Source of the DNA: a virus
IMG/VR virus record: IMGVR_UViG_3300024520_000556
Location: 1 to 21,458 of that record
Strand: one strand, 5' to 3'
DNA: 21,458 nucleotides
Under the pieces are notes generated by a model. It ran no database searches. It saw only the letters and a list, made by a program, of their open reading frames with translations, and was not told the DNA's origin. Shown here piece after piece: positions 4,770 to 18,747 of this stretch; within the stretch, counting starts at the first letter, position 1, and every line of letters starts with the position of its first letter. The position numbers and the translations under genes are program-made.

Positions 4770-4774
4770 AATTA

Positions 4775-4794
4775 CAAATATAATTAAATACTAT
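4775..4794 (-). promoter_or_regulatory. Putative promoter before the second tail-tube-like gene
   Basis: On the minus strand TATATTTG (4782-4775) matches the Bacteroidota -7 element TAnnTTTG. Three bases upstream lies ATAGTATTT (4794-4786), close to the ATAGATTTT block found before three other late genes. No -33 TTG is visible. The ATG is only five bases after the -7 element, so a transcript from it would have almost no leader. Confidence 0.4.
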
Positions 4795-4816
4795 TGATTA
4801 TTTATTTTTAATAGTT

Positions 4817-6703
4817 TTATTTTATAGTAGGTTCAACAACATTACCATAATCAAAGGTAGGTGTATAGTCTACATCATTGTAATCAAGACCACCAGCATC
4901 ATTTAATATTTGTTTTAGCTTTATTTTTGTAGTGTTAGTTAACGCATCATAACTATACTCTATTGGCATAAATTTAACGTCTGTAATACCATCAATTTCA
5001 AAGACTGATAAGTAATCAACAAAACCAAATATATCACCGCTAAACACTCTTAAAGGCTTGCTATACATTGCCATTCTTTCCTCACCTGAGTATTGCAGTA
5101 AAGCTATTTTACGCACATTTCCACGATTCCATAACTCAGTCGGTGTAACTTCATCAGATTGATAAATTGTACCAATATAAACATCAGATATACTATCACC
5201 ATTAAAAACTTCTTTTACATCTTCAATTTTAGTAGAAAAATCAGTAGTATTAAATTGAAATGTATGGTTTTCTCCTTTTATATCTTCTAGTTCATTGTCT
5301 GCAATTGTTAGATTATTTTGAGAAACCAAATAAGTAACATCATAATCAGTACCAAAACTAGTGGGGTTCGGCGTGTATAATTCAATATAAGCATCACCAT
5401 CAAAAGGTAATGTATCTGATATTATTTCGTAATTAAACGAGCCTAAATATTTAACCTCAGAAAACAATATAAAAATGTTAGATGTGTCCCACTGCCCATT
5501 CTTATTCATATATCTAGTACTAGTGCCGTCTGTTAATATTACTTTACACCTAAATAATGCAGTACCAAAATTAGTTCCTGAAAAAGTATGCTCAATTGCT
5601 CCCCTATAAGAAATCCTATTACCCTCAATTAAGGAAACTACATCAGAAGTAATTATTAAATCTTGTTGCCCTCGTGTTTCTCCACTTAATATTAAACCCT
5701 CATTACTTACAGGAAAATCTAAATACGTATAACTCGCTATGGTCCATTCGTCAACTATATTTTTCAAAGGAAATATACGGGGTGTACTTTGTAGATAAAT
5801 GTTATTAAAAAACGATTTAACTAAACCATATTTATAATTAATTCTATATGCACCAATACCACTATCTATACTTAATTGTTGATTAGCATTAACGTGGTGT
5901 GGGTAAAAATTATTAATTTGACTGCCTAACGTAAAACTTAAATCAATTGTTTTAGTTGTAGGGCTTAAAGCCACTCCGTCACTATCATAACCGTAATAAG
6001 TTAAACTACTATTATCTTTTAATGAATTAGGCTTATAAATCAGCCATTCGCCTTTATATTGCGTAATACACAACCCAAATAAATCGAATAGAGAGCGTAA
6101 AACTTCATCGCAATTCATAAAGGTATTATTATCGTCTTTTATGTATCGATTTGCGTTTATAAAAGTTTCTGCTAGTGTATTTGTTCCGCTTGTTTGCCCT
6201 TCATAAATTACATCTACATAAGTATAAATATTTTGAGTTAAATTAGTTCGTTTTAAACAATTAACAATCACTTCTAAAATAGATTGTTTACCTATAAATG
6301 GCAATCCTGTATCATTTTCTACATAAGATAAATTCTTTAAGAACCCTAAACCATCAGTACAATCTAAGCTAATTATCCATTTATCCTCTACAAAAGATTC
6401 ATATAAACCCTCAGGCGATAACCAACCTAAAAACTCACTAACACCATCTCTTATATATTTTACTGAAAATGTACGTTCATTTTCACTATAAAAGTCATCA
6501 AACTTTAAATCTAAATTAGCTTCTAAATTAATGGTTAAACCACCGCCTCTAATTGTTTCTAATGTATCTTTTACCGTTGCTTTGTTCGTTGTTAAGTTAC
6601 CGTATATTTGTGTAGAATCCCCTACAAAAGAATCATTGTATATTTCGCATCTATGTACTATTTCTTTTACATCTGTAAATTCAAACCAATATTTTAAAGC
6701 CAT
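4817..6703 (-). CDS. Tail-tip / baseplate hub protein
   Basis: A 628-residue protein placed directly after the tape measure gene (two-base gap), where siphophages encode the distal tail and hub proteins. It begins with a beta-rich segment (WFEFTDVKEIVHRCEIYND) and a region near residues 90-125 with FLGWLSPEG and LDCTDGLGFLKNL, followed by VLRSLFDLFGLCITQYKGEW around residue 200-220. These patterns recur in large tail proteins of Bacteroidota phages that I take to be hub or Dit-Tal equivalents; this rests on recall and position, not a search. No peptidase, lysozyme or other catalytic motif was recognised. It probably closes the tail tube and carries the tip proteins and fibre encoded next. It could also be described as a fused distal tail plus hub protein, as no separate Dit gene is present. 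Confidence 0.65.
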   Translation of the reverse strand: MALKYWFEFTDVKEIVHRCEIYNDSFVGDSTQIYGNLTTNKATVKDTLETIRGGGLTINLEANLDLKFDDFYSENERTFSVKYIRDGVSEFLGWLSPEGLYESFVEDKWIISLDCTDGLGFLKNLSYVENDTGLPFIGKQSILEVIVNCLKRTNLTQNIYTYVDVIYEGQTSGTNTLAETFINANRYIKDDNNTFMNCDEVLRSLFDLFGLCITQYKGEWLIYKPNSLKDNSSLTYYGYDSDGVALSPTTKTIDLSFTLGSQINNFYPHHVNANQQLSIDSGIGAYRINYKYGLVKSFFNNIYLQSTPRIFPLKNIVDEWTIASYTYLDFPVSNEGLILSGETRGQQDLIITSDVVSLIEGNRISYRGAIEHTFSGTNFGTALFRCKVILTDGTSTRYMNKNGQWDTSNIFILFSEVKYLGSFNYEIISDTLPFDGDAYIELYTPNPTSFGTDYDVTYLVSQNNLTIADNELEDIKGENHTFQFNTTDFSTKIEDVKEVFNGDSISDVYIGTIYQSDEVTPTELWNRGNVRKIALLQYSGEERMAMYSKPLRVFSGDIFGFVDYLSVFEIDGITDVKFMPIEYSYDALTNTTKIKLKQILNDAGGLDYNDVDYTPTFDYGNVVEPTIK

Positions 6704-6705
6704 AA

Positions 6706-8508
6706 TTATATCGTTAAAGTACCTCCTAAGTTTCTATTTCTATCTAAAGTATTCCTTAAAACACCTACTAATTTTTGCCCTTGTATTTCAAATACAACCG
6801 TACCGCCACCAACTGAACCGCCACCGCTACTAAATGATGAACCACCACTAAATGAGCTACCTTGTCCGCCTTGTACGTTGGAATTATCAGCACCAGCACC
6901 ACCAAAACTAGACATCCCACTACCCGCAGCATTTAAAGCAATACCACCTGCAATTGCAGCTAAACCCGCTCCAATCCCTGTAACAGCTCCAAATAATTTA
7001 GTAACCGTACCCGCTAAAACCGCAGCAGTACCTAATTGAATTAACTTATCACCCATTGCAGAAATCAAGTTACCAATACCACTAATTAAAGCACCACCAA
7101 CCGCAGCTAAAACACTTGTACCCTGTGCTAAACCATTACCTATTGCTTGACCAATACCGCTAAAAGTACTAGTCATTGCGCCCTGTATCATTTGTTTAGA
7201 TTGCTCATTTAATAAAGCCATTTTTTCAGATAGTAATTGTCTTTGATTATCCCACTCTTTTAAATTGTAATACTTTTCCCAATCAAAAGGACTATCACCT
7301 ACCCATTTATCCGATAAATCTATTTGTTCTATTTCTTCAAAACTACCCTTATCTAGTTTGAAATCTATAAAAACAGGTTTTCGACCACCACCTACTGAAT
7401 TATCTTTTTTATTATCTTTATTACCTTTTTTACCACCAAATAAAATCAAATCTTTTACGTTTGCTAAATTAGTTAGTGTTGAAATTTGTTCTGTTATTTC
7501 GTCAATTTCACTTTTATTATAATCTTTTAAATTATTTAAAGCATAATTTGCATTTTGAACAAATCTTTTTTGCTTAACATCATAACCTTTATCAAGTTTA
7601 GCTTGTTCTTTTTTTACTTGGTCTTCGGCTTCTTTTACAGTAGCAACTCCAAAACGTGCTTTAATTTTTAAGGCTTTTTCTTCTTCTAAAGCTAATATTT
7701 TAGATTGTTTTTCTTGTATTAAAGTAAGAGCCGCCTGTGCTTTTGCTTGTTGAACTAAACTACCAATATAAGCATCAATAGCAATCTTTGATTTTTCATA
7801 ATTACCTTTTGTTGTTAATAATGAGGTGTCAAAATCTGAATATTTATCTTTTAAAATAGATAATGCTTTGCTTTGTTCTTTTTGTGTAGAGTTATTGTCT
7901 AACATTACATCAGTTAATGCCTTAAACTCAACAATACCAGTCGAAGACACACCTTTTAAAGCATCTACAAACTCCTTTGTTTTGCTTGTAGTAGCCATTA
8001 TCTTATCACCAAACATTAACCACGCAGAGGTCGCTAAAGATATTGCTAAGGTTATACCACCAAAACCACTTAAACTGCCTAACATAGCTTTTAATGCACT
8101 ACCAGCAGACCCTGTTCTTTTCTTTAAATACCCAAATTGTTCTGTTAAGTTGGTAATGTTGTTAGAAATACCCATCATTCCAAAAGGTGCATCTTGTACC
8201 GTTCTGGAAAAGGCTAACATTGCATTATCACCGCTTTGTATACTTTTAGTCGCACCGTTAAAACCACCGCTAAGATTTCCTAAACTTTTCTTGTAATTAT
8301 TTGAAGCATTTGAAACTTTGGTTAATCTCGTAGCATTACTTGCTAAACTTTTATAGTACTTTTCTTGCGAAATAGTACCATCTTTATACGCTTGTTTTAG
8401 TTCCTTTTCTTTTGCTTTTAATTGGTCTGTTAGTTTTAAAGCCTGTGCTACTTTGGTCTGAAACTCCTTAATCTTTGCGCCAATTTCAACTTCTAATCTA
8501 TTTCCCAT
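6706..8508 (-). CDS. Tail tape measure protein
   Basis: A 600-residue protein that sets tail length and is packed inside the tail tube. Residues 1-75 are a charged helical region rich in Lys, Gln and Glu. Residues 104-125 (QDAPFGMMGISNNITNL) match a segment I know from Bacteroidota tape measure proteins. A hydrophobic stretch lies at about 143-167, further coiled coil at about 250-350, and a long Gly/Ala-rich hydrophobic region near 440-545 ends in a Ser/Gly-rich linker. At about 0.15 nm per residue a tail near 90 nm is inferred. The gene follows the tail assembly chaperone frames and overlaps the second by 11 bases, the standard siphophage order. The opposite-strand open frames within it are shadows. 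Confidence 0.88.
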   Translation of the reverse strand: MGNRLEVEIGAKIKEFQTKVAQALKLTDQLKAKEKELKQAYKDGTISQEKYYKSLASNATRLTKVSNASNNYKKSLGNLSGGFNGATKSIQSGDNAMLAFSRTVQDAPFGMMGISNNITNLTEQFGYLKKRTGSAGSALKAMLGSLSGFGGITLAISLATSAWLMFGDKIMATTSKTKEFVDALKGVSSTGIVEFKALTDVMLDNNSTQKEQSKALSILKDKYSDFDTSLLTTKGNYEKSKIAIDAYIGSLVQQAKAQAALTLIQEKQSKILALEEEKALKIKARFGVATVKEAEDQVKKEQAKLDKGYDVKQKRFVQNANYALNNLKDYNKSEIDEITEQISTLTNLANVKDLILFGGKKGNKDNKKDNSVGGGRKPVFIDFKLDKGSFEEIEQIDLSDKWVGDSPFDWEKYYNLKEWDNQRQLLSEKMALLNEQSKQMIQGAMTSTFSGIGQAIGNGLAQGTSVLAAVGGALISGIGNLISAMGDKLIQLGTAAVLAGTVTKLFGAVTGIGAGLAAIAGGIALNAAGSGMSSFGGAGADNSNVQGGQGSSFSGGSSFSSGGGSVGGGTVVFEIQGQKLVGVLRNTLDRNRNLGGTLTI

Positions 8509-8785
8509 TGTGTCTATTATTGTATTCTTGTTGAGCCTGTTTAAAAAATTCCATTGCCTGTTTATTTATTTTTGGTATTGCTTTTTTTATACCTAAATCC
8601 CAAAATTGTTTCTTTGTTGGTAACTTCTTTAAATTCATTGAACCACCGATATAACTATTGTAAGCTATTTCTCTTGTTTTTATATTCTCTTTTAGCTCCA
8701 TTCTATAAAAAGCAAAAAGCCGAATGTTAAATTCAGCCATTGTCATTGTAAATAAATAATCATAGGTTAAATTAAATTCACCCAA
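8498..8785 (-). CDS. Tail assembly chaperone, downstream (gpT-like) frame, reached by -1 frameshift
   Basis: As an isolated frame this would have to start at a TTG at 8785 and give 95 residues, which is an unlikely gene start. The frame is in fact open upstream through the codons I-D-W-Y-K-D-I-I-S-F-C to the A10 run at the end of the preceding gene, in the -1 frame relative to it. The joined protein would be 226 residues. The sequence just after the junction (DWYKDIISFCLGEF, then YLFTMTMAEFNIRL) resembles the C-terminal extension of gpGT-type chaperones, with a W, an eF and a 'MTxxE' pattern. Such proteins bind the tape measure during tail assembly, and the gene lies directly before the tape measure, which it overlaps by 11 bases. 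Separate translation is possible but less likely. Confidence 0.7.
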   Translation of the reverse strand: MGEFNLTYDYLFTMTMAEFNIRLFAFYRMELKENIKTREIAYNSYIGGSMNLKKLPTKKQFWDLGIKKAIPKINKQAMEFFKQAQQEYNNRHNGK

Positions 8786-8814
8786 GCAAAAAGATATAAT
8801 ATCTTTATACCAAT

Positions 8815-9177
8815 CTATTTTTTTTTTACATCTTTACTTTCATTTTCAGAACTTTCTAACGGTGTTTTATTTTCGTTGTTACCTATAAAAGTGTTAATAA
8901 AAGATAAGATTAAATTAGTACCGAACAACTCTTCTTTTTCAAGCCATTCAATAACATTATCTTCTGTAAAGTCTATCTCTTTTTTATCCTTTTTATAACT
9001 GTTTTTTAGGCTTTCAAACATCAAAACAGGTGCATATTTAAAAGGGTTTTTAATAACCTTTTCTAACATCTCGTTATAATCGCAATCTAAACGCTCTAAA
9101 ACTTCACCTATAAATAATAAACCAAAAGTAAAAGTTCTCTTTTTACCTCCTATTTTTAAAACTAATTGTTTTTGCAT
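8815..9177 (-). CDS. Tail assembly chaperone, upstream (gpG-like) frame
   Basis: A 120-residue protein between the major tail protein and the tape measure, the position of gpG in lambda-like phages. It starts with a beta-rich segment (QLVLKIGGKKRTFTFGLLFI), continues with helices (EVLERLDCDYNEMLEKV) and ends in an acidic and lysine tail (SSENESKDVKKK). It would coat the tape measure protein before the tube polymerises. Its last three codons are AAA, forming an A10 run with the preceding GTA, followed by TAG; the -1 frame continues as the gpT-like part, so two products are expected, the short form and a 226-residue fusion. It starts four bases after the stop of the tail tube gene. Confidence 0.8.
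   Translation of the reverse strand: MQKQLVLKIGGKKRTFTFGLLFIGEVLERLDCDYNEMLEKVIKNPFKYAPVLMFESLKNSYKKDKKEIDFTEDNVIEWLEKEELFGTNLILSFINTFIGNNENKTPLESSENESKDVKKK
8818..8827 (-). other. A10 slippery run for programmed -1 frameshift (tail assembly chaperone)
   Basis: On the minus strand the upstream gene ends GTA AAA AAA AAA TAG. The run of ten A's contains the slippery heptamer A-AAA-AAA in the right phase. A -1 slip reads AAA ATA GAT TGG and enters the downstream frame, which stays open to its stop at 8498-8500. Polymerase slippage adding one A would give the same product. Confidence 0.75.
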
Positions 9178-9181
9178 TTAT

Positions 9182-9622
9182 CTAGGCTTCTGGGTCAGTT
9201 GTTGTAATTAATCCACTCCCCATAATTGAACCTGTAAAAGTTACATCAGAATCAATTTCAGCAGTCTTTTCTAAACTTGATAAAAAACCACTTCCATAAT
9301 TATCAAAAGTTGAAGCGTCTGAATATCTTGTAGATATTTTCCAAGTAAAGTTACCACCTCTATTTCTTAGTCTTGTAGTTAACTGCTCATAACCCTCAAA
9401 AGCTCCATCAGGGTCAGAATAAACACCATCAAAACCTATCTCATAAGTGTAAGCTCCCTCTCTTTTTTGTGTAGCTCCATCTGAATCACATTTTGTTCTT
9501 GTTGCAATTTCATCTACACTTTCAGATATATTATGGGATGTTAGACATACTACAGGTCTATAAGCGTCACTACCATTCCATATAGATAGAATTTCGGTTT
9601 TTGTTTTAACGTAATTACTCAT
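9182..9622 (-). CDS. Major tail (tube) protein
   Basis: A 146-residue protein before the chaperone and tape measure genes, where the tail tube subunit is normally encoded. It has the beta-rich make-up of TP901-1-like major tail proteins, with blocks YRPVVCLTSHNISESVDEI, YEIGFDGVYS, LTTRLRNRGGNFTWKIS and DVTFTGSIMGSG. It would form the stacked hexameric rings of the tube. It is related by eye to the product of 4275-4769. A 73-base gap upstream holds a putative promoter (TATATTTG at 9654-9647, with an ATAGATTTT block), which suits the high output needed for a tube subunit. Confidence 0.8.
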   Translation of the reverse strand: MSNYVKTKTEILSIWNGSDAYRPVVCLTSHNISESVDEIATRTKCDSDGATQKREGAYTYEIGFDGVYSDPDGAFEGYEQLTTRLRNRGGNFTWKISTRYSDASTFDNYGSGFLSSLEKTAEIDSDVTFTGSIMGSGLITTTDPEA

Positions 9623-9646
9623 TTTAAATATTTTTATTTAATATAA

Positions 9647-9669
9647 CAAATATAATAAATAAAATCTAT
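9647..9669 (-). promoter_or_regulatory. Putative late promoter before the major tail gene
   Basis: On the minus strand ATAGATTTT (9669-9661), six bases, then TATATTTG (9654-9647), a match to the -7 element TAnnTTTG. The ATG follows 24 bases later. No -33 TTG is seen. A small A+T-only hairpin-like repeat (AAAATC/GATTTT, 9661-9677) overlaps the upstream block. Confidence 0.45.
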
Positions 9670-9695
9670 TAGATTTTTTTTTAGTATAAATTTTT

Positions 9696-10130
9696 CTAAT
9701 TAATAAACATTTCTATTCTCAAAAATCTTCTAAATATGTTTTCAGTCGGTGTAATTGTTTCAATTCCTGCAGGGAAATCTTGCGTTTGTCTATGGATATT
9801 TAAACCACTTGCAACATCTAAAGTTAAATTGTTTGTTAACTCTCTTAATTTGTCTAAAATGTCATCTGCTAACGTTCGTTTAAGTTCGTTACCAGTTCCA
9901 TAATAAGAAGTAACAATATCGAGTAAAACAGTAGATTCATAAGCATAACCGCATTTTGTGTATTTATTAACTGAGTTTGTTTGTGTAGTAATTAATACAT
10001 AATGGTTTACATTGCCATTTGTAGGCACTCTAAGATCATAAACAGGTATATTAATACCGTTTACTACCATATTTGAAGTAGCTGTTAAAATAGCTTTTCT
10101 TACCCATTTGTTAGGTATTGGTTTATCCAT
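9696..10130 (-). CDS. Tail terminator / tail completion protein
   Basis: A 144-residue protein between the HK97 gp10-like gene and the tail tube gene, the usual position of the gpU/DUF3168-like tail terminator, which caps the finished tube and joins it to the head. The pattern fits: a helix at the start (WVRKAILTATSNM), a strand with VPVYD-type residues (INIPVYDLRVP), YVLITTQT, then a long helix (NELKRTLADDILDKLRELT) and a C-terminal strand ending FRRFLRIEMFIN. It overlaps the preceding gene by eight bases. The call rests on position and predicted fold outline; no strict signature was seen. Confidence 0.65.
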   Translation of the reverse strand: MDKPIPNKWVRKAILTATSNMVVNGINIPVYDLRVPTNGNVNHYVLITTQTNSVNKYTKCGYAYESTVLLDIVTSYYGTGNELKRTLADDILDKLRELTNNLTLDVASGLNIHRQTQDFPAGIETITPTENIFRRFLRIEMFIN

Positions 10131-10650
10131 TGTGTTTTTTTGTTAAATCTTCTAATAAATCTTTTAAATCTTGTTTCAATATTTTCTTCCCTTTTAAGAA
10201 AGCTGGGTATAAAAACGGTCTAGGTTTTAAACCCTTTTTTAATATACTCATAAAAATAGGAAAAGCCATTTTTTCATCTATTCCTTTATTCTTACACCAA
10301 TCTTTTATGCTTTGTAAGCCTTTTTCAAAACCACCACCTTTACCTTTAAATTGAGATGCTATCTTTTTTAATTCGGGTGGTACACTAACTTGTTTACCTG
10401 TACCAAACTCTACAAAAGGCGCATAGCTACGAGCAACACCCCCAACATAAATACTATAACTTAATTTTTTGCCTTCTGTTTTTTCTGATAATATACTTTC
10501 GTTTAATTTACCGTTATTTATAGGTGCATTAATTTTTGCATTAGCTTTTATTTCTTCGGCTGTTTGTTTTATAACTACATCAATATGATTTTCAGTATCC
10601 TTGCCAAATGCTTTAATGTTTTTAATGATATTGTCAATGCCCTTGCCCAT
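10123..10650 (-). CDS. HK97 gp10-like head-tail joining protein
   Basis: The frame is open from 10704, but I place the start at the ATG at 10650-10648. The product then begins MGKGIDNIIKNIKAFGKD, which is like the N-terminus of HK97 gp10 family proteins, and the overlap with the upstream gene falls from 71 to 17 bases. The longer form would begin with an odd repeat-encoded stretch (IKIKTKIKTR). The protein is 175 residues, basic, with the family's middle motif YAPFVEFGTGKQV, then a C-terminal PRPFLYPAF, both typical of gp10-like proteins acting at the neck between head and tail. It sits between the head closure and tail terminator genes as expected. Confidence 0.8.
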   Translation of the reverse strand: MGKGIDNIIKNIKAFGKDTENHIDVVIKQTAEEIKANAKINAPINNGKLNESILSEKTEGKKLSYSIYVGGVARSYAPFVEFGTGKQVSVPPELKKIASQFKGKGGGFEKGLQSIKDWCKNKGIDEKMAFPIFMSILKKGLKPRPFLYPAFLKGKKILKQDLKDLLEDLTKKHNG

Positions 10651-11047
10651 TCTGGTTTTGATTTTGGTTTTGATTTTGATTACCAATAGGCGTAATCGTA
10701 TCAACTCCTTTACTCATTTCTTTTTTTAATGTTATTATAATTTCCCTATCTTCAAAACCTACATTTATAGGTTCTGTTTGTATTACATATTTCAAACCCC
10801 TATATTTAAAGAATTGGTTTTTACTATTATACGTTAAATCATTCCTTTTACGTAGTTTTATAGTGATAGTATCAGTTGTGTCAATAATACCCATATCAGT
10901 ACTTCTATAGACTGTATTTGTTGTAATCAACTCGCACCAAGTAGTTGTAATTAGCTGTGGTGTTACTGATTTGTCTCCAAACTCATCTTGCGCCTCTGGT
11001 AACGTTTGCCATACTTCTATTCTTTTATTGTATTTTCTCGCCCTCAT
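10634..11047 (-). CDS. Head closure protein (head-tail adaptor)
   Basis: A 137-residue protein of the SPP1 gp16/HK97 gp9-like head closure type. It opens with MRARKYNKRIEVWQ, continues with a D-E-F-G-D turn (QDEFGDKSVTP) and TWCELI, and later has FFKYRGLKYVIQTEPIN, all matching the outline of the family's small beta-barrel: an opening strand, a D-x-G turn, a W, and a 'gx.yxI' strand. It would close the portal channel after packaging and receive the tail. The C-terminus has an unusual Gln-Asn repeat with 10 residues from the hexanucleotide tract. Start overlaps the stop of the connector gene (TAATG). Confidence 0.75.
   Translation of the reverse strand: MRARKYNKRIEVWQTLPEAQDEFGDKSVTPQLITTTWCELITTNTVYRSTDMGIIDTTDTITIKLRKRNDLTYNSKNQFFKYRGLKYVIQTEPINVGFEDREIIITLKKEMSKGVDTITPIGNQNQNQNQNQNGQGH
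10649..10678 (-). repeat. Hexanucleotide repeat encoding a Gln-Asn tract
   Basis: On the minus strand CAAAAT and CAAAAC alternate for four units, followed by CAGAAT. In the head closure frame this encodes (Gln-Asn)5 near the C-terminus. The unit is six bases, so gain or loss of units would keep that frame. The tract ends at the first bases of the proposed start codon of the gp10-like gene. Confidence 0.85.
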
Positions 11048-11517
11048 TAAATTATAAATCGTTTCAAACTAAATATCATTGCATCAATATAAGGTGGTAT
11101 CTTTTGCGCTGTTCCTGAATTTGTTTCAGCATCATAATACAAATATTTAATATATTCTAAAGCACAATCTTTTATTTCACTTGGTACGTCATCAGGATTC
11201 GCATAACCAACGTTTAACGTTACTTTAACGTCATCACTTGAATTAGTTGTAAATATAGAATAACTTTGCTTTTCCGTTTGTTCTGCTGTTATAGGTGTTA
11301 TTAATTCGTTAATTGGATAGTCATAAACATACACGCAATAATTACTAAAAAAATACTCTTTAGACCTTGTATACACTAACTCATTTGTTTGCTTTTCAAT
11401 GTACGACAAAGCACTTTTAATAAAAGATGTTATACGTGCATCATCTTCTGTTAAAGTGTCATCAACTCTTAAATAGTTCTTTGTTTCCGCTAACGTTAAG
11501 ACGTCTAAATATGCCAT
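11047..11517 (-). CDS. gp6-like head-tail connector protein
   Basis: A 156-residue protein with the N-terminal pattern of HK97 gp6-like connectors (Phage_connect_1): TLAETKNYLRVDDTLTEDDARI, then ITSFIKSALSYIEKQT. The C-terminal helices (PSEIKDCALEYIKYLYYD) also fit. These proteins form the ring below the portal. It is the first gene of the connector and neck group; the gap upstream holds a terminator for the capsid genes and an overlapping promoter-like sequence, so this group may be transcribed separately from the capsid genes. Confidence 0.8.
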   Translation of the reverse strand: MAYLDVLTLAETKNYLRVDDTLTEDDARITSFIKSALSYIEKQTNELVYTRSKEYFFSNYCVYVYDYPINELITPITAEQTEKQSYSIFTTNSSDDVKVTLNVGYANPDDVPSEIKDCALEYIKYLYYDAETNSGTAQKIPPYIDAMIFSLKRFII

Positions 11518-11535
11518 TATAAATATTATTTATTA

Positions 11536-11569
11536 CAAATATAAAAAAAATAGAGCATACTTATACAAA
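11536..11569 (-). promoter_or_regulatory. Putative promoter for the connector genes, overlapping a terminator
   Basis: On the minus strand TTTG (11569-11566), 22 bases, then TATATTTG (11543-11536), close to the flavobacterial consensus TTG-N17-23-TAnnTTTG. The TTTG lies in the loop of the terminator hairpin, and the -7 element starts in its T-run. The connector ATG follows 18 bases after the -7 element. Confidence 0.5.
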
Positions 11570-11580
11570 TATGCTCTATT
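11543..11580 (-). terminator. Intrinsic terminator after the capsid genes
   Basis: A perfect 11-bp stem, AATAGAGCATA with TATGCTCTATT (11580-11570 and 11559-11549), and a 10-base loop, followed on the minus strand by a T-run (11550-11543). It ends transcription coming from the protease, major capsid and 42-residue genes. Confidence 0.85.
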
Positions 11581-11603
11581 AATTATTTAAGAATGTATTT
11601 CTA

Positions 11604-11732
11604 CTAATCTTCTTTAGGTTTATAACCTTCAAGTAAATGAACTAAATCCTTTCTTTTACCTTTGTATTCCGAACCTACTTTATAGGTTTTCTTTTCCTGT
11701 ATACAGAAAAACTCTTTTGTTACTTTTGCCAT
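11604..11732 (-). CDS. Small capsid-adjacent protein (42 residues)
   Basis: A complete short frame, ATG at 11732-11730 and TAG at 11606-11604, starting 24 bases after the major capsid stop and ending 24 bases before the terminator stem. The product is basic: MAKVTKEFFCIQEKKTYKVG, then SEYKGKRKDLVHLLEGYKPKED. The order F-x-C-I, Y-K-V-G-x-x-Y-x-G and D-L-x-x-L-L-E resembles the small proteins with a 'YkvGdxyxg...L...G' pattern that lie beside capsid genes in many siphophages. Function unknown; a minor head or capsid-decorating part, or an assembly factor, is possible. The position between capsid gene and terminator argues that it is real. Confidence 0.75.
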   Translation of the reverse strand: MAKVTKEFFCIQEKKTYKVGSEYKGKRKDLVHLLEGYKPKED

Positions 11733-11756
11733 AATTTTATGTATTAAATATTAATA

Positions 11757-12890
11757 TTAAACTGATGTAAAATCTCCAAACACTAACGCTAAAGGCTGTT
11801 CAACAGCTAAAGCTGTTTGGCTTTCAATCCTTGCAGTAATGTTGTTCTTTGTAAAGTTATCACCCTCAACATCTGAAAACTCTAAAGAAAGACCCTCAGT
11901 ATTAATTTTGTTAACTCTTGACCAATCACCGATAAAATATTTGTTAGCAGTTAACCAAGTAGCTTTTAACACTTGAACACCTGCAACTCTTAAAATACCA
12001 CCCTCATAAGTAACGGCACTTTCTAAATCTTGCTTCGCAGTCTTTAACATATCCATCCACGCATCTGGTCTAACTACAATTCCGTTGGTCTCATAATCGT
12101 TATTCTCTAACTTTGCAATCTCATTCATTAACATTTTAGTCTTAGAACTTCCTGTAATTATTTCAGTTGATGCAGTTGCATCAGATGCTAAGATTGTGTT
12201 AAATGCGCTGTTTTCAGCTTTAAAGTAATCACGTCTTAACAACATTGGAATAGCAGAAGTAATGTAAGAAAGATTGTTTCTCATTTTCTTGCTATATCTT
12301 GCAAAACCAGCGATAAAGTCAGTTGTTACATCAACAGTAGTAAAGTCATAATCTCTTTGATTCTTTGTAGCTCCTTCTGTTTGCGCTCCGATAGAACCCT
12401 CACCAGCACCTTCAACTGTATACGTATAAGTACCTCCGTCAATATTAACAGAACCAACTAAATCAGCTACGTTTACTTTTTGAGATGGAAATTTAACTAT
12501 ATCATAGTTGTAACTTCTTGGCTCATCTCCTGTAAGGTTTGCAGTAGTCATATCTGCAACCGCCTTAATTTCAATATCTACAGAACCACCTTTTCGCATT
12601 TCTGTAATTTCTTTTCCTTTGCTTTCAATAGCAACTTTTAAGAAATCTTTACCTTTGTTTGCGTCAGCAACTTGCTTACCTTGCAACTTAACATCTAAAA
12701 TGTCAGCGTGTTTCTGTAATTCTTTTAATTGATTTTCTAATTCATCTTTAACCTCTTTTACTTGGTTTGCGATAAATTCTTTGTTTTTAGTTTCAAAAAC
12801 CTCGATTGCTCTTTTTACTTCCTGTTCATTTGCGCCTTTAACCTCATTTTTTAGGTTAGATAATGCGTCTTGTAATTCTTTTAATTCCAT
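11757..12890 (-). CDS. Major capsid protein, HK97 fold
   Basis: A 377-residue protein. Residues 1 to about 75 are a charged coiled coil (LQDALSNLKNEV, VKDELENQLKELQKHADIL) typical of the delta domain that scaffolds HK97-type capsids and is removed by the prohead protease. The mature shell protein probably begins somewhere between residues 75 and 115; the exact cut cannot be read. The rest has the family pattern, including TYTYTVEGAG, TEGATKNQRDYDFTTVDV, and IVVRPDAWMDMLKTAKQ, with a C-terminal QTALAVEQPLALVFGDF. The gene directly follows the protease, with start and stop overlapping (TAATG), and precedes a small gene and a terminator. Confidence 0.92.
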   Translation of the reverse strand: MELKELQDALSNLKNEVKGANEQEVKRAIEVFETKNKEFIANQVKEVKDELENQLKELQKHADILDVKLQGKQVADANKGKDFLKVAIESKGKEITEMRKGGSVDIEIKAVADMTTANLTGDEPRSYNYDIVKFPSQKVNVADLVGSVNIDGGTYTYTVEGAGEGSIGAQTEGATKNQRDYDFTTVDVTTDFIAGFARYSKKMRNNLSYITSAIPMLLRRDYFKAENSAFNTILASDATASTEIITGSSKTKMLMNEIAKLENNDYETNGIVVRPDAWMDMLKTAKQDLESAVTYEGGILRVAGVQVLKATWLTANKYFIGDWSRVNKINTEGLSLEFSDVEGDNFTKNNITARIESQTALAVEQPLALVFGDFTSV

Positions 12891-13552
12891 TATTTTAATG
12901 TTTTTGTAAATTCGTTAATAATATTTGCAATGTCTAACGGCTTTTCATTGGAAGTGTCAGTTTTTTTAGACGGCTCTTTATCTGTAAGTGTTATTAATAA
13001 TTGTTCTATTTGTTTTAATCGTGCATCTGAATAGTCTAAGTTATAAGACTTTTCAATTAGTTCTAATACACCATAATGCCCCTTAATACTCTTTACATCT
13101 TGAACGGTGCTTAATTGATTAGCTCCCCAACTTGTAAGAAATGAGTATTCCATTAATTTGTATTCTGTTATAATGCTTTTATTCTTTTGGTCTCTATTCA
13201 AAACATTATAACCTATACTTAATTCAGCATTTAAGCCATTCTCAGTCATTAGCTTAATATCGCTAAACATATCTCTACTAACTTCTTTAGATAGGTTAAA
13301 TTTAGTAGTAGTCAATAAACCATAGTTATCTTTAGTATCTATATTTAAAGGCACTCCTAAACTTACTCTTGGATTGTGGTCTTTAAGTACTCTTATCCTT
13401 TTATAATTCTCATTAACGGTCTTATCAAAACTACCCTTTGCGCTTATATCACCATCACTATCTTTGTAATCATACGCATTTGCATAAGCTACAACTATAC
13501 CCTTAGTTTCGTCTAAGTCTTTAACCTCTATTGATTGTTGTTTAAAATACAT
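12890..13552 (-). CDS. Prohead protease (HK97 family, peptidase U35/S78)
   Basis: A 220-residue protein with the family pattern in order: D-S-D-G-D-I-S-A-K-G-S-F (31-42), the catalytic-histidine region LKDHN with His59, and ELSIGY with Ser112 as the likely nucleophile, followed by the substrate-strand segment LTSWGANQLSTV (139-150). It would cut the delta domain from the capsid protein and process itself inside the prohead. The C-terminal 50 residues are polar and probably disordered. The position before the capsid gene, joined by a one-base overlap, is standard. A TATATTTG element lies only four bases before the ATG. Confidence 0.88.
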   Translation of the reverse strand: MYFKQQSIEVKDLDETKGIVVAYANAYDYKDSDGDISAKGSFDKTVNENYKRIRVLKDHNPRVSLGVPLNIDTKDNYGLLTTTKFNLSKEVSRDMFSDIKLMTENGLNAELSIGYNVLNRDQKNKSIITEYKLMEYSFLTSWGANQLSTVQDVKSIKGHYGVLELIEKSYNLDYSDARLKQIEQLLITLTDKEPSKKTDTSNEKPLDIANIINEFTKTLK

Positions 13553-13556
13553 GTTA

Positions 13557-13576
13557 CAAATATAAATAAAATCTAT
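13557..13576 (-). promoter_or_regulatory. Putative late promoter for protease and capsid genes
   Basis: On the minus strand ATAGATTTT (13576-13568), three bases, then TATATTTG (13564-13557). The ATG of the protease follows only four bases later (TATATTTGTAACATG), so a transcript from it would be leaderless or nearly so. No -33 TTG is seen. Confidence 0.45.
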
Positions 13577-13612
13577 TATAAATTTATTTTTTATACTTTT
13601 TTTTTATAGTTA

Positions 13613-13643
13613 TTGTTTTTTACTATATTGTTTTGTATATTTG
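13613..13643 (+). promoter_or_regulatory. Putative plus-strand promoter for a short RNA
   Basis: TTG (13613-13615), 20 bases, then TATATTTG (13636-13643): a full match to the flavobacterial consensus TTG-N17-23-TAnnTTTG. It points away from the surrounding minus-strand genes and towards a terminator about 60 bases on. Confidence 0.5.
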
Positions 13644-13649
13644 AGCTTT

Positions 13650-13732
13650 CATATTTGTATTATTTAATTTTTTAGTTATCTCAATGGGGGTTGAGAATTT
13701 TCCTCACTATATCTTTATAGTGAGGTTTTTTT
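13650..13732 (+). ncRNA. Predicted small RNA, ~80 nt, antisense in direction to the head operon
   Basis: The 184-base gap between the gpF-like and protease genes holds a complete plus-strand transcription unit. A promoter match lies at 13613-13643. Then comes an A+T-rich 5' part, a 6-bp hairpin TCTCAA-TGGGGG-TTGAGA (13679-13696) with a G-rich loop, and a 10-bp terminator hairpin with seven T's. The expected transcript is about 80 bases, from roughly 13650 to 13732. No convincing reading frame is contained: the ATG at 13684 opens a frame that runs on through the terminator into a shadow of the gpF-like gene. The G5 loop could pair with C-rich RNA. The exact start is an estimate, and expression is unproven. 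Confidence 0.45.
13702..13732 (+). terminator. Intrinsic terminator, plus strand
   Basis: CCTCACTATA (13702-13711), loop TCTT, TATAGTGAGG (13716-13725), then seven T's. The 10-bp stem is perfect. On the minus strand the hairpin is followed by AAAATT, not a T-run, so it acts for plus-strand transcripts. Confidence 0.85.
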
Positions 13733-13736
13733 ATGC

Positions 13737-14549
13737 TTATAAATTTCTTATTAATCTTCCGTCCTTATCTCTCTTAGGCACTAAGGCATTTGTACACCTA
13801 CAATTAATAGTATTACTTGCGCTTCCGTTCGGGTCTCCTGCAAATTGCATTTCTTGAAAACTACCGTTAAAAGGTACTTTAAAAGGTTCGTCTTGGTCAA
13901 CTTTAACACCGTTCATAACTAAGTGGTTAAACTCAGATTTGGGTGGTTTACGTGTTCGTACATCAGTCGCACTTATCCAAACCTTATCCATTGGTACACC
14001 GCTTACCTTACCAGCTACAACCGAAGCATAATTCGCCGCCGCCGTTGTTTCTGTTCGTGCTATACGTAGAGCCTGCCATCTATAAAAGTTTCTTTGATTT
14101 ATTTGTTTCGTTAAGTTTGTAGATATTTCTGATATAGTTAAGTTATTAGAAACCATTACAGCGATTTCTTTTCTAACATATTCTAAAAATGTACGTCTCA
14201 CCTCACTTACTCGATAGGTCGCATTTTCAAACAACCAAGCTATTAAATTACGTTCAAACTCAGATAAGAAAGCGTTTAACGTAAACTCTTTGATTTCTTT
14301 GTTAATGGTTCTGCCAACTCTTGCACCGTGAATAGTACCAACTTCTTTATATATATTATAGTAAATGTTTATAAACTGCTCTTGCTTTAGATTAGTTTCT
14401 AAAAACTCACTATAATTGTCTACAGTCATAAACATAAAAGGGATAGAATTACCTAAATCTCTAAAACCTGTTAATAGTTGTTTGTAAGCTAACTTTTCAT
14501 ATTGTGAATGTTGCCTTAACCATTTTTTTCTATATTGGTTTTCTGTCAT
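13737..14549 (-). CDS. Minor head protein, SPP1 gp7 / Mu gpF-like
   Basis: A 270-residue protein. The C-terminal part has the signature of the phage head morphogenesis domain: RIARTETTAAANYA (about 163-176), KVWISATDVRTRKP (189-202), EFNHLVMNGVKVDQDEPF, then AGDPNGSASNTINCRC ending in the conserved Cys-Arg-Cys (about 251-253). The N-terminal half is helical, rich in aromatic and charged residues. These proteins bind the portal and enter the prohead in small numbers. The gene follows the portal and a small membrane peptide, and precedes the protease, as is normal. Its start overlaps the stop of the membrane peptide (TAATG). A plus-strand terminator hairpin ends just before its stop codon. Confidence 0.88.
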   Translation of the reverse strand: MTENQYRKKWLRQHSQYEKLAYKQLLTGFRDLGNSIPFMFMTVDNYSEFLETNLKQEQFINIYYNIYKEVGTIHGARVGRTINKEIKEFTLNAFLSEFERNLIAWLFENATYRVSEVRRTFLEYVRKEIAVMVSNNLTISEISTNLTKQINQRNFYRWQALRIARTETTAAANYASVVAGKVSGVPMDKVWISATDVRTRKPPKSEFNHLVMNGVKVDQDEPFKVPFNGSFQEMQFAGDPNGSASNTINCRCTNALVPKRDKDGRLIRNL

Positions 14550-14749
14550 TAATACTCTGCATTTTTATGATAAAATAGAAGTAAATCTCCGTAATTATCC
14601 CCAAAACAAAGATTATTTAATACTCTTAATTTTTTAGACATAAATATATTTCCCTCCCTTAATCCTTTAATTATACAAATGCAGAAAAAAGGCAAATAAA
14701 GAAAGAAAACAGAATACAAAACAATAATTAATAAATAAAAAAAGTTCAT
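14549..14749 (-). CDS. Small hydrophobic protein between portal and minor head protein
   Basis: The frame gives 66 residues: a strongly hydrophobic segment at about 3-28 (one membrane helix), a short basic loop, then a soluble tail LRVLNNLCFGDNYGDLLLFY. It starts two bases after the portal stop and its own stop overlaps the next start (TAATG), so it is tightly built into the head operon. An internal ATG at codon 37 would give a soluble peptide of 30 residues and is preceded by a purine-rich GGGAGGG about nine bases before, so the real start is uncertain. No family recognised. A membrane peptide inside a head operon is unusual; the short form would be a simpler reading. Confidence 0.45.
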   Translation of the reverse strand: MNFFYLLIIVLYSVFFLYLPFFCICIIKGLREGNIFMSKKLRVLNNLCFGDNYGDLLLFYHKNAEY

Positions 14750-14751
14750 AT

Positions 14752-16131
14752 CTATTCATTTAAAGTTAAATCATCACTTGGCAATATTGCATCTTCTAAG
14801 CTCATAATGTCATCTTTTACGGTAAATATAGATAGATTAGCGTCTTCAATTTCTTCCAACCTCATTGCAAATCTTGCTTCTTTTCTATTCATAATCCCGT
14901 CAGCAACTAAAGAAACAACTCTTTTACTCATTGTTTCCAAATCTTCCTGCATCTCTGGTAGCTCCTTATAATCAAATAAAAGAATAGTATCTTTATAGCC
15001 TTTTATCTCATTTAAAACTCCTTGTTTAAATGCTTCTGCAATTATATTAGAATCTGGAACAGTTGTATTAATTAATACTCTTTTTAATTCCAATTCCTGT
15101 TTATCGTGCTTACCACCATCATCATTGTTCAGTAAACTATCTGACCATCCCAAAGCATTACAAATCATTTTCTGATTATACTTTAAATGCTCAAATATTT
15201 TTAGTTCATCAGATGTTAGCGATATACGGGTAAACGCTAATTCACCACTTGAAGCCATTATGTTAGATAAATCTTCCTTACTTACCTTAGCTTCATTCAT
15301 TCTATCTTTAAGCCCCTTTTGTTGTCTATCTGAAAGGTTTTGTCCTTTTGCGTGAATAAAACCAAATACCCCTGCATTTCTTAGCATTTCAATGTTTAAA
15401 TCTAACCCTTTGTTACTTGCTAATACATTTTTCCATACTGCTCTTAACGGGCTTTGTCCGTACAACTGCTCACCATTTTGCCCATAATTAGGGTTATCTA
15501 TTGAAACGTGTATAACTTCATTTCTTTCAAACCTTGTAAGTCTATTGTAATAATCCATTTCAAAATATTCAATAACATCTTCTGATCCTAACATATTAGC
15601 ATCTTTACGAATATATATTTTCATTAAATGAGCTGGTAAGCAATACAATTGTTGTGGTTCTCCTGCATTTATTCCGTTCTCAGGCATTAACTTATACCAA
15701 TAGAAATTACCAGTCATTTTTAAGAAACTATACGTTAATTTAAAAAACTCTTCCCAAGTTTGATTTGGATTTGGTCTTTCAAATGGCATAGGGTAATCTT
15801 CTTTACTTAATGCTTTTAATTCTAATTGATTGGTTTTAATTTTTTGTGTAAATGTTGGATTGTAATTTGTAGCTTTTAATAGTCTGTTATATTTCTTATT
15901 ACTTTCTTCATCTTCTATCTTTTTTATGTAAAAAGGAATAGAAACAAATTTACTTGACATTTGATTAACAATAGAAAATACATCTCCATTGATATTATAA
16001 CCATCATCAATGTATTTCTTTAAATCGGTATCGTCATTATTTGTCAACCCATTAAGACCCCAATAAAAAGTTTTATTGTATTTATTATTGTTTGTTTGGT
16101 TATTACCTTTTAAAAAATCCCAGAAACCCAT
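14752..16131 (-). CDS. Portal protein, HK97 type
   Basis: A 459-residue protein of the Phage_portal family. It has an N-terminal WDFLKG start, the segment VFSIVNQMSSKFVSIPFYI (about 52-70), RPNPNQTWEEFFKLTYSFL followed by GNFYWYKL, then PQQLYCLPAHLMKIYI and VIHVSIDNPNYGQNG-LYGQSPL, a classic portal block, and SLLNNDDG. Twelve copies form the DNA channel at one capsid vertex and dock the terminase. Length is normal for the family. The gene lies 56 bases after the large terminase; the gap holds a promoter-like element. It precedes the minor head protein with one small gene in between. Confidence 0.92.
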   Translation of the reverse strand: MGFWDFLKGNNQTNNNKYNKTFYWGLNGLTNNDDTDLKKYIDDGYNINGDVFSIVNQMSSKFVSIPFYIKKIEDEESNKKYNRLLKATNYNPTFTQKIKTNQLELKALSKEDYPMPFERPNPNQTWEEFFKLTYSFLKMTGNFYWYKLMPENGINAGEPQQLYCLPAHLMKIYIRKDANMLGSEDVIEYFEMDYYNRLTRFERNEVIHVSIDNPNYGQNGEQLYGQSPLRAVWKNVLASNKGLDLNIEMLRNAGVFGFIHAKGQNLSDRQQKGLKDRMNEAKVSKEDLSNIMASSGELAFTRISLTSDELKIFEHLKYNQKMICNALGWSDSLLNNDDGGKHDKQELELKRVLINTTVPDSNIIAEAFKQGVLNEIKGYKDTILLFDYKELPEMQEDLETMSKRVVSLVADGIMNRKEARFAMRLEEIEDANLSIFTVKDDIMSLEDAILPSDDLTLNE

Positions 16132-16154
16132 ATAAGAAAAATATATTAAATATT

Positions 16155-16177
16155 CAAAAGTAATAAAAAAAATCTAT
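16155..16177 (-). promoter_or_regulatory. Putative late promoter before the portal gene
   Basis: On the minus strand ATAGATTTT (16177-16169), six bases, then TACTTTTG (16162-16155), matching TAnnTTTG. The spacing is the same as before the major tail gene. The portal ATG follows 23 bases after the -7 element. Confidence 0.4.
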
Positions 16178-16187
16178 ATAAGTAGTT

Positions 16188-17405
16188 TTAAAAGAATACT
16201 ATTTCATTTCCTATTCCTATGTCCATCATTTCGTGATAACGTATAGCATCCATTGCGTGGTTAAATTGGTCTACAGGTTTGTTCTTTGCGTTGTTGTTTT
16301 TGTCCTTATCCCAAATGTATTTTTGAAACTCGTTTATAATATTGTTAGATTTCTTTGTGACTAAATAAGATTGTGTTTGCATTGTAGTGATACCAAACAT
16401 AATACTATCAGCACCCTTTTTAACAGGCATTATATCAATACCAAATCTTCTGATTTCTTCTATTGATTTAGGTTCAGCGCTATCAGCGTACACATAAACA
16501 TCATTTGGTAACATTTTGGCAATATCACTATTAACCATTCCTGTTCTATAACAAACCTCATTTAATATTCGTTTATCATTGTATTTATAAACTTCCACTA
16601 TTGCAGTAGGGTCATTACTATAACCAAAATCTAAACCTATTCCAATCAATCTTGCTTCACTTGGCAAACTATCGATAACCATCCAATTATCAAAAATAAC
16701 ACCGTCTAAGTTACCTACTAAACCAAGACCATAAACTTTCCACTTATTAGCCCAATACTTATTTTTGATATTATCAATATCGAATAATGTTTCGATTAGT
16801 CTTGTGGGGTCGTGGAATCCTTTTTGCTTATAATCTAAGATAGAACGAACCTCACTATCTGAAAGGTATTCATTGTCTTCAAATGTTAATGTTATAAAGT
16901 TTTTATCATTTATGTATTCATCACCCCAAAATAAAGCATCAGGATTGTAGTCAATTATAGTTAGCCCTGCCCTTGATATGAACTGAACAGCAGTGTCAAC
17001 GTCCATTTTATCCGCTTCATTGATGTATAAGATATCTCTACGAAATCCTTTCCCTACATCATTAACGTCAGCACCTAAGAAGTCTAAATAACTATCGTTA
17101 AAGTATTCGTGTTTACTTTCTGAGCGGTTAAAATCAAACTCATTTCTTAATACTCCCCAGTCTTTACAGATCTTCTTATAATCTCTTATAACTGTTCTTT
17201 TCATCTTACTTAATTCAGATGATAAAATAGTAGCTTCTTTAGTTGAAGCACATAAGGATTGTATAAGTAATTGAATTATTGATACTGTTTTAGACGCACC
17301 TTGTCCACCTCTAATTACAAAAACATTCTCTTTTGGATTATTTAAGATTAAATCCCTTATTTTATAATAAGCCTTTGTATATAGATATTTGTTACCTGTT
17401 GCCAA
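16188..17405 (-). CDS. Terminase large subunit
   Basis: A 405-residue packaging motor with ATPase and nuclease parts. Walker A is GGQGASKT (33-40); Walker B is ILYINEAD (125-132) with Glu130 as the catalytic carboxylate. The RNase H-like nuclease has acidic residues Asp259 in GLDFGYSNDPTA, Asp308 in ADSAEPKSI and Asp386 in HAMDAIRY. The two-domain order and length match phage terminases. It cuts and pumps genome DNA into the prohead through the portal. It overlaps the small subunit gene by 14 bases and precedes the portal. All key residues are present, so it should be functional. Confidence 0.95.
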   Translation of the reverse strand: MATGNKYLYTKAYYKIRDLILNNPKENVFVIRGGQGASKTVSIIQLLIQSLCASTKEATILSSELSKMKRTVIRDYKKICKDWGVLRNEFDFNRSESKHEYFNDSYLDFLGADVNDVGKGFRRDILYINEADKMDVDTAVQFISRAGLTIIDYNPDALFWGDEYINDKNFITLTFEDNEYLSDSEVRSILDYKQKGFHDPTRLIETLFDIDNIKNKYWANKWKVYGLGLVGNLDGVIFDNWMVIDSLPSEARLIGIGLDFGYSNDPTAIVEVYKYNDKRILNEVCYRTGMVNSDIAKMLPNDVYVYADSAEPKSIEEIRRFGIDIMPVKKGADSIMFGITTMQTQSYLVTKKSNNIINEFQKYIWDKDKNNNAKNKPVDQFNHAMDAIRYHEMMDIGIGNEIVFF

Positions 17406-17820
17406 TGTCTTTAACTTCTGGAATATTAAAACCTCCTGATATTTCTGTTTTGGTGGTTTCTGATAATCCGTTTAAACGTGCTGTAATGCTTTGGGAATAT
17501 ACCATTGCCATACCACCCTCTATTTGGTCTCTCTTAATATCCGCCTTTATACGTGATGAGATAGGGGAATAATTTGAGTAAGCATCATCTCTATTTTCAA
17601 AATATTGTTTTAAATCAGGATAAGTTATCTCTGTATGTTCACAAACATAATTCTCAAAACCCACCATAGTTAAGGGTTTTTCTCTTTGTTCGTATGTAGA
17701 TTGTCCGTCTTTACCTACAAAAACGTGTTTAAGTATTGGATTGCTTTTAGTTTCTTTTTTATATCCAACATAAAGTTCCCATAATTTCCTTGGTGTTTCT
17801 ATGTATTTATTTTTACCCAT
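17392..17820 (-). CDS. Terminase small subunit
   Basis: A 142-residue protein directly before the large terminase, overlapping it by 14 bases. It begins ETPRKLWELYVGYKKET, followed by a 'PLTMVGFENYVCEH' segment, YFENRDDAYSNYSPISSRIK, and ends MAMVYSQSITARLNGLSETT with a short acidic and glycine tail. This is the layout of the DNA-binding terminase small subunits of Bacteroidota phages, including the typical C-terminal 'ITARLNGL'. It recognises the packaging start in the genome and activates the large subunit. The identification uses pattern recall plus position. Confidence 0.82.
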   Translation of the reverse strand: MGKNKYIETPRKLWELYVGYKKETKSNPILKHVFVGKDGQSTYEQREKPLTMVGFENYVCEHTEITYPDLKQYFENRDDAYSNYSPISSRIKADIKRDQIEGGMAMVYSQSITARLNGLSETTKTEISGGFNIPEVKDIGNR

Positions 17821-18008
17821 TACCTTTCTACTAATTCTAATTTCCTATTAAACTTCAATTCCAGTTTTTTACCGTGTTTATTGTACCAAATTCTCGCCTT
17901 ACGTTTACTTGTAAATTTCTGGCTATACTTTGTTATCTTTTTTTTGTGTGAAACGCAATAAATAAACATATTAGCAAATATAAGGAATTTATTTATATTT
18001 ACTTTCAT
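17820..18008 (-). CDS. Small basic protein of unknown function
   Basis: A 62-residue, strongly basic protein; the core is FTSKRKARIWYNKHGKKLEL. Its stop overlaps the start of the small terminase gene (TAATG), and the long form overlaps the phosphoesterase gene by 20 bases. A second ATG at 17969-17967 gives 49 residues (MFIYCVSHKKK at the start) without overlap; a TATATTTG element lies five bases before this inner ATG. I cannot choose between the two. The charge suggests nucleic acid binding, but no family is recognised. Confidence 0.55.
   Translation of the reverse strand: MKVNINKFLIFANMFIYCVSHKKKITKYSQKFTSKRKARIWYNKHGKKLELKFNRKLELVER
17975..17982 (-). promoter_or_regulatory. TATATTTG element before the small basic gene
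   Basis: A -7-like TATATTTG on the minus strand, five bases before the inner ATG (17969) of the small basic gene and two bases after the end of the next-upstream gene's short spacer. No -33 box or ATAGATTTT block accompanies it. It may be chance. Confidence 0.25.
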
Positions 18009-18747
18009 TATAATCTTCTAATATCATAGGCACAGCAATAGCTTCTTTTCCACCTATAACAACACCGCAACCAATAGCGGGTTTTAAACCAGCTTTAGCA
18101 TAACCAAAGGCATACTCTTCGTGATTAATTCCACAACCTACTTGCATACCAAATATTCTGTTTTTACGACCTACAACATACTCTACGTATAACTGCGTAT
18201 GCAAATGACCTTGTACCATAGACTGTAAATCTTTTTTACATTTTGTTCTTGCAGTACCACCCTCACCGTGTGCGTATAAAACCCCGTCTATTTCTAATTC
18301 TGTATGAAAACGCCAATTAGGTATTTTTAAGACATCGTTATATTCTCTTATCCATTCTCTTGGAATACCACCTGTTTGAGCTTTACGCATAATTAAACGT
18401 GTATGATTTCCTATAATTACATCAACATCAGGGAACACTTTGTAATATCTTTGCAGTCTTTTCTTAGCGTAATACAACTCTTCACCTCCACCCATTCCGT
18501 CTGCATCTGTTTCGTGATAACTTGAATAGTGGTTATCAATTTCATCGCCAATATGCACTACTCTGTTACAATTATACTTATTATAGGTATCTACTAAGAA
18601 ATCTAAATAAGTGTCTAAATCAAAGGGGCAGTGAGTATCACCTATAATTAAAACTCTGCTCTCTTGTTTAGTCCAAGATTTATACATTTGTTTTGTTTGC
18701 CCTTTTAATCGAGGTCTGAAATCTCCCATATTTTTATTGATTTTCAA
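17989..18747 (-). CDS. Calcineurin-like metallophosphoesterase
   Basis: A 252-residue protein with all five metal-site motifs: IGDTH (Asp37, His39), HIGDEID (Asp68), GNH (Asn114, His115), AHGEG (His160) and GHLH (His181, His183). The family hydrolyses phosphomono- or diesters with two metal ions; the substrate cannot be told. Similar enzymes are common in phages of Bacteroidota next to the terminase genes. An insert at about 75-105 (HETDADGMGGGEELYYAKK) sits near the active site. It is the first gene of the minus-strand block, 40 bases after a TATATTTG element in the divergent control region. A role in DNA end processing, nucleotide metabolism or signalling is possible, none shown. Confidence 0.88.
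   Translation of the reverse strand: MKINKNMGDFRPRLKGQTKQMYKSWTKQESRVLIIGDTHCPFDLDTYLDFLVDTYNKYNCNRVVHIGDEIDNHYSSYHETDADGMGGGEELYYAKKRLQRYYKVFPDVDVIIGNHTRLIMRKAQTGGIPREWIREYNDVLKIPNWRFHTELEIDGVLYAHGEGGTARTKCKKDLQSMVQGHLHTQLYVEYVVGRKNRIFGMQVGCGINHEEYAFGYAKAGLKPAIGCGVVIGGKEAIAVPMILEDYNESKYK

Follow-up and report, generated by a model that had tools for sequence, protein, structure and literature searches.

A putative small-RNA unit in a candidate cargo slot with a reverse promoter at the gpF-protease junction of a phage lineage

The junction between the gpF-like and protease genes in this flavobacterial phage lineage is, on a slender balance of the sequence evidence, probably a cargo slot with a standing reverse promoter. 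The window, which is the whole stretch of DNA analysed here (21,458 nt), represents a 21-kb fragment of a phage genome, and the cargo predicted in it is a short non-coding RNA. Gene callers skip phage small RNAs, and to our knowledge such RNAs are hardly known beyond enterobacterial models. A fixed promoter with swappable cargo provides a search rule (60-85 nt upstream of the protease start, opposite strand), which would find such RNAs as well as unknown accessory genes in flavophages. In this way, the tRNAs, small ORFs and RNA units of the phage group could be placed in one explained slot.

A reverse-strand unit in the gpF-protease gap

The gap of 184 nt (13553-13736), read directly, is bordered by a head maturation protease (12890..13552, minus strand; PHROG 80, E 1.2e-30) and a gpF-like head morphogenesis protein (13737..14549, minus strand; PHROG 2468, E 9.3e-40). 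The first-pass annotation placed a promoter, a hairpin with a G5 loop and a terminator on the plus strand of this gap, surrounded by minus-strand genes. Both statements hold. All annotatable genes from 1120 to 18747 lie on the minus strand, and the plus strand of the gap carries a sigma-A type promoter reverse to the head operon (13613..13643; TTG at 13613-13615, a 20-nt spacer and TATATTTG at 13636-13643), hairpin 1 (13679..13696; TCTCAA-TGGGGG-TTGAGA, with GGGGG in the loop) and an intrinsic terminator (13702..13732; a 10-bp stem (4 GC) at 13702-13725 and T7 at 13726-13732), the 3' end of which falls 4 nt short of the gpF stop codon. When the gap was dinucleotide-shuffled 5000 times, the strict promoter motif appeared in 6.3% of the shuffles, the terminator alone in 0/5000, and promoter and terminator in order also in 0/5000. 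With both strands checked, the terminator is the sole one of such strength in the window, and GGGGG at 13686-13690 is the single plus-strand occurrence there. The promoter and the terminator are thus firmly supported as sequence motifs.

Since the flavobacterial sigma-A box (TAnnTTTG) spans -12 to -5 relative to the transcription start (PMC9723704), the RNA was predicted to start at about 13648 and to end at the T-tract, giving 85 nt on the plus strand (13648..13732). This agrees with the ~80-nt RNA without a contained frame that had been proposed: no coding frame is contained in the predicted RNA, and the ATG at 13684 reads through the terminator into gpF antisense. Its length, non-coding nature and intrinsic terminator are those expected of a small RNA (50-250 nt, non-coding, intrinsic terminator), and an Rfam scan of the window gave no tRNA match for it. 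Folding of 13648-13732 yielded z = -4.85, which is mostly driven by the terminator, because the part 5' of the terminator folded alone gave z = -1.3, which is not unusual.

Terminators and short units in relatives

IMG/VR searches with the protease and gpF returned 80 and 46 loci, respectively. In most long-gap relatives with gpF identity of at least 58%, a reverse terminator adjoins the gpF stop codon, namely in L026/L027 (gpF identity 77%), L028 (71%), L106 (63%, two tandem reverse units), L110/L031 (62%) and L107 (58%, three reverse units). Short units of similar size (65-105 nt) were found in several lineages, and tandem units in two. In L106 (1676-1902), the -33 TTG of the second unit sits within the terminator hairpin of the first. 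The reverse strand of L107 bears first a GGGGG RNA unit, then another short unit, and finally a 60-aa ORF with tRNA-Cys(GCA) and a terminator behind it; a tRNA gene in this orientation is a good indication that reverse transcripts of the slot are made in one relative or more. Small ORFs on the forward strand of the gaps (e.g. ATGAAAGCTCAAATATAC...; window, L106, L107 and L110) seemed suggestive on inspection, but showed no conserved length or sequence and were set aside.

The gap of L025/L105 (gpF 76%) measures 92 nt and retains half a terminator. Judging from this comparison, the unit was lost there by deletion, and it would therefore be dispensable. The terminator at the gpF border is also absent from many compact-gap relatives.

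A reverse promoter at a fixed place with varying cargo

Relative to the start codon of the protease, the -33 element of the reverse promoter lies at 58-62 and the -7 element at 82-85. The strict promoter was found at this fixed distance in the window, L026 and L107, where the cargo is a predicted RNA, and in L029, L051 and L084, where unrelated small ORFs of 100, 110 and 97 aa, respectively, stand behind it; the gpF of L084 is just 31% identical. Two relatives count against a standing promoter: L028, with a short RNA unit as cargo, has one mismatch (TACATTTA at 83, TTG at 59), and L110 has no -33 match. Among isolated Cellulophaga phages, phi18:1 and phi12:1 carry TATATTTG at 76-77 ahead of two reverse genes in the slot, which in phi10:1 extends over 3.9 kb and contains forward genes and tRNAs besides four reverse genes. 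More tRNA-like stretches were seen by eye in phi10:1 (L147, NC_021802.1) at 8290-8620, where ARAGORN gives Tyr and Phe only. Homing-endonuclease genes also occur in the slot, of the HNH/NUMOD4 type in L132 and the GIY-YIG type in L100. The junction can be described, from these gene arrangements, as an insertion hot spot.

Among 81 distinct upstream regions of 250 nt each, 5/8 strict reverse promoters fell within one 8-nt bin, which was picked after viewing the positions, and the sets compared are small and related by descent. A strict promoter was present in 4/6 slots with a reverse terminator versus 0/12 control gaps; L106 is counted among the four, its strict promoter being that of the second unit, at another place in the slot. 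The motif bins and the alignment register were chosen by eye after inspection, so the small-sample significance is inflated.

The G5 hairpin

GGGGG recurs, with differing stems, in 3/8 units (window, L028 and the first L107 unit, L107u1) and is the sole occurrence on the plus-equivalent strand in each. Compared with shuffled flanks, the enclosing stem gave p 0.0036 in the window and 0.019 and 0.069 in the two other G5 lineages. The compensatory changes anticipated for the hairpins were seen in hairpin 1 between the window and L028, which retains TGGGGG in an altered stem with 4 pairs changed on both sides; the L107 hairpin pairs poorly in the shared ungapped register of the three sequences. 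In this ungapped alignment, two-sided changes affect 5/6 pairs, mostly window versus L028; MAFFT on whole units had misplaced the L107 G5, and the hairpin was aligned alone, a register that favours the hairpin.

Outside the G5 hairpin the RNA bodies evolve fast, and the eight 5' bodies together showed no greater structure than shuffles (combined p 0.18). The G5 hairpin is thus moderately supported by the sequences as a kept element, and the units do not yet qualify as a family of structured RNAs as Rfam uses the term. Rfam 15 gave no match at or above the gathering score in the window, L026, L028, L106 or L110. A comparison with Flavo-1 had also been suggested, and this motif was absent among the window matches at E <= 10, with 0 at gathering. 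Anti-Shine-Dalgarno pairing of GGGGG was considered and rejected, as it exceeded shuffles in L107u1 alone (p 0.002; window 0.11, L028 0.44). Taken together with the promoter and terminator positions in relatives, the G5 loop with its compensatory stem changes leaves the proposed plus-strand small-RNA unit well supported, as far as sequence can support it.

Exact patterns were used to search for further G5 units; few were found, and three G5 examples are present in the searched data. The hairpin-only pattern matched 16 stretches in IMG/VR, of which the window phage was the one followed as a relative. The hairpin plus terminator pattern matched the window phage, L028 and two stretches read as chance. 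With the promoter-G5-T7 pattern, 33 stretches were obtained, only the window phage and L107 being in the slot by reading; the remaining matches were rejected as coding or different elements. A pattern of the second-unit type matched the L106 contig only. The distant DNA search of isolated phages gave AT-rich chance matches only, and the gpF profile search of genome contigs gave no match.

Proposed explanation and alternatives

We lean, with some reserve, towards a cargo slot whose product in the window is a trans-acting, moron-like small RNA working through its G5 loop. The standing promoter facing away from the protease would transcribe whatever cargo separates it from gpF, and the intrinsic terminator at the gpF border would keep this transcription out of the head operon. 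The window cargo would be a non-coding RNA of ~85 nt, made by host RNA polymerase from the slot promoter; moron-like and dispensable, this small RNA would act in trans. Its exposed GGGGG loop may be a seed that pairs with C-rich sequence of a host RNA, or of an RNA from unsequenced phage DNA, and its 3' end may be protected by the terminator hairpin. The genome has a GC content of 30%, and GGGGG is rare there. No CCCCC was found on the minus strand of the window outside the gap itself, and a host or unsequenced phage target is therefore likelier than a known late gene. The sequences show the promoter and terminator motifs, the places they keep, the swapping of cargo and the recurring G5 loop; transcription of the RNA, its timing, trans action and target are what we infer. 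The unstructured 5' bodies, GGGGG in only three units and the loss of the unit in L025/L105 count against this explanation. More tentatively, the junction may be a plug-in site equipped with a reverse promoter of its own, in which ORFs, tRNAs and an undescribed class of short regulatory G5-loop RNAs acting on host transcripts are swapped as cargo.

The terminator itself might instead be the selected part, halting antisense transcripts that come from the divergent promoter region before they reach gpF, portal and terminase, with the RNA as a by-product. Terminators adjoin the gpF stop in every unit-bearing lineage while the RNA bodies drift and show no structure beyond chance, as such an insulator would predict. 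However, insulation does not call for a complete promoter that keeps its position and is matched to ORFs in relatives, the G5 loop recurs, and many compact-gap relatives do without the terminator, so we consider this unlikely.

That a decayed reverse gene left behind a functionless promoter, short transcript and terminator appears quite unlikely. Reverse ORFs do stand behind the same promoter in other slots, L025 looks like a deletion in progress, and the bodies diverge fast, but decay would hardly leave short units of one size class (65-105 nt) in several lineages, tandem in two, or compensatory change in the G5 hairpin.

An antisense brake on late genes, which the first-pass annotation had also proposed, is disfavoured: the RNA ends 4 nt short of the stop codon of gpF, and the CCCCC complement is found only in the gap itself. 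In such a brake, the RNA would pair with a minus-strand mRNA reading from gpF to protease and uncouple both units. It is indeed fully complementary to the gpF-protease intergenic region, where the sole minus-strand CCCCC falls, but such complementarity comes automatically and would not need the G5 loop to be kept, there is no overlap with coding sequence, and the protease has its own promoter-like block; the brake is very improbable. Finally, hairpins form on either strand and Watson-Crick compensation is blind to strand, but it is scarcely credible that they are processing or stability elements of the late mRNA on the minus strand, given a T-tract on the plus side only, the conserved position of the plus promoter and the reverse transcription of the slot indicated by the L107 tRNA-Cys.

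Comparison with known systems

Compared with the features by which morons are recognised, the unit as read from sequence has its own promoter and an orientation independent of its neighbours, has its own terminator and is absent from close relatives (L025/L105 and many compact gaps). Among the three roles initially proposed, a moron-like one fits best, as the slot holds other reverse cargo in relatives and isolated phages. Accessory loci antisense to lytic genes have been reported, e.g. STMMW_20121 of prophage ST64B (PMC7067206). Like these and other morons, the unit has an autonomous promoter, lies on the opposite strand in a structural region, is dispensable and varies among relatives; unlike them, the promoter of the window lineage stays put while the cargo changes, and the window cargo is a short RNA. 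Of 396 Flavobacteriales genomes, 1 was matched by the gpF profile A1 (E <= 1e-30), suggesting that the lineage seldom occurs as a prophage; for phi18:1, no temperate lifestyle is known (PMC11946311). For both reasons a benefit in lysogeny is not assumed for the window phage.

Prophage RNAs with host effects have precedents (PMC7067206, PMC12803456), which are leads on function, not relatives. Similar to svsR of NC-SV (PMC12803456) and STnc6030 of BTP1 (PMC7067206, which also names IsrJ), the window RNA would be phage-encoded, outside the lytic programme and possibly active in trans in the host; however, svsR, STnc6030 and IsrJ are enterobacterial, and no sequence relation is expected. Rfp18 of F. 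psychrophilum (PMC9723704) has a TAnnTTTG flavobacterial promoter, an independent short transcript (predicted in the window) and stem-loops, but it is chromosomal and conserved in a genus, and is likened by features, not sequence. The tRNA cluster of phi10:1 also places short RNA genes at the gpF-protease junction, with the L107 tRNA in the same slot and strand, whereas the window RNA has no tRNA match.

Minus-strand blocks and other stretches

The other half of the gap contains a feature overlooked by the first-pass annotation, a promoter-like block of the protease-capsid unit (13557..13610, minus strand) ending with TATATTTG at 13564-13557, just before the protease ATG. This block is kept in relatives and lies back to back with the plus promoter, sharing the gap. 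Two more minus-strand genes are preceded by similar minus-strand blocks (4772-4828, 9646-9695), and another by a 19-nt piece (11533-11551). All four (13557-13610, 9646-9695, 4772-4828 and 11533-11551) end in a AATAGATTTTATTTATATTTG-like sequence ahead of these genes. They resemble a family of late phage promoters lacking the TTG box of the host, and are read as putative promoters of the late genes. At 11549-11580 of the window (minus strand), a terminator-like hairpin, with its T-run entering a TATATTTG box, precedes the next gene block.

Two further kinds of stretch were seen elsewhere. In L151 (6319-6430) and at the equivalent places of L160 and L176, TATATTTG is followed by a conserved AACCTTAnTGGGGGATGT..CTGAACCCGnTAAGGTT stretch among early genes; it looks like a structured RNA element, and had no Rfam match in L151/L160. 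In L164 (1650-1740) and its equivalent in L177, a promoter-like TATATTTG is separated by ~50 nt from a terminator-like hairpin (GGGGTTGC..GTAGCCCT) in an intergenic stretch, which is possibly another short RNA unit.
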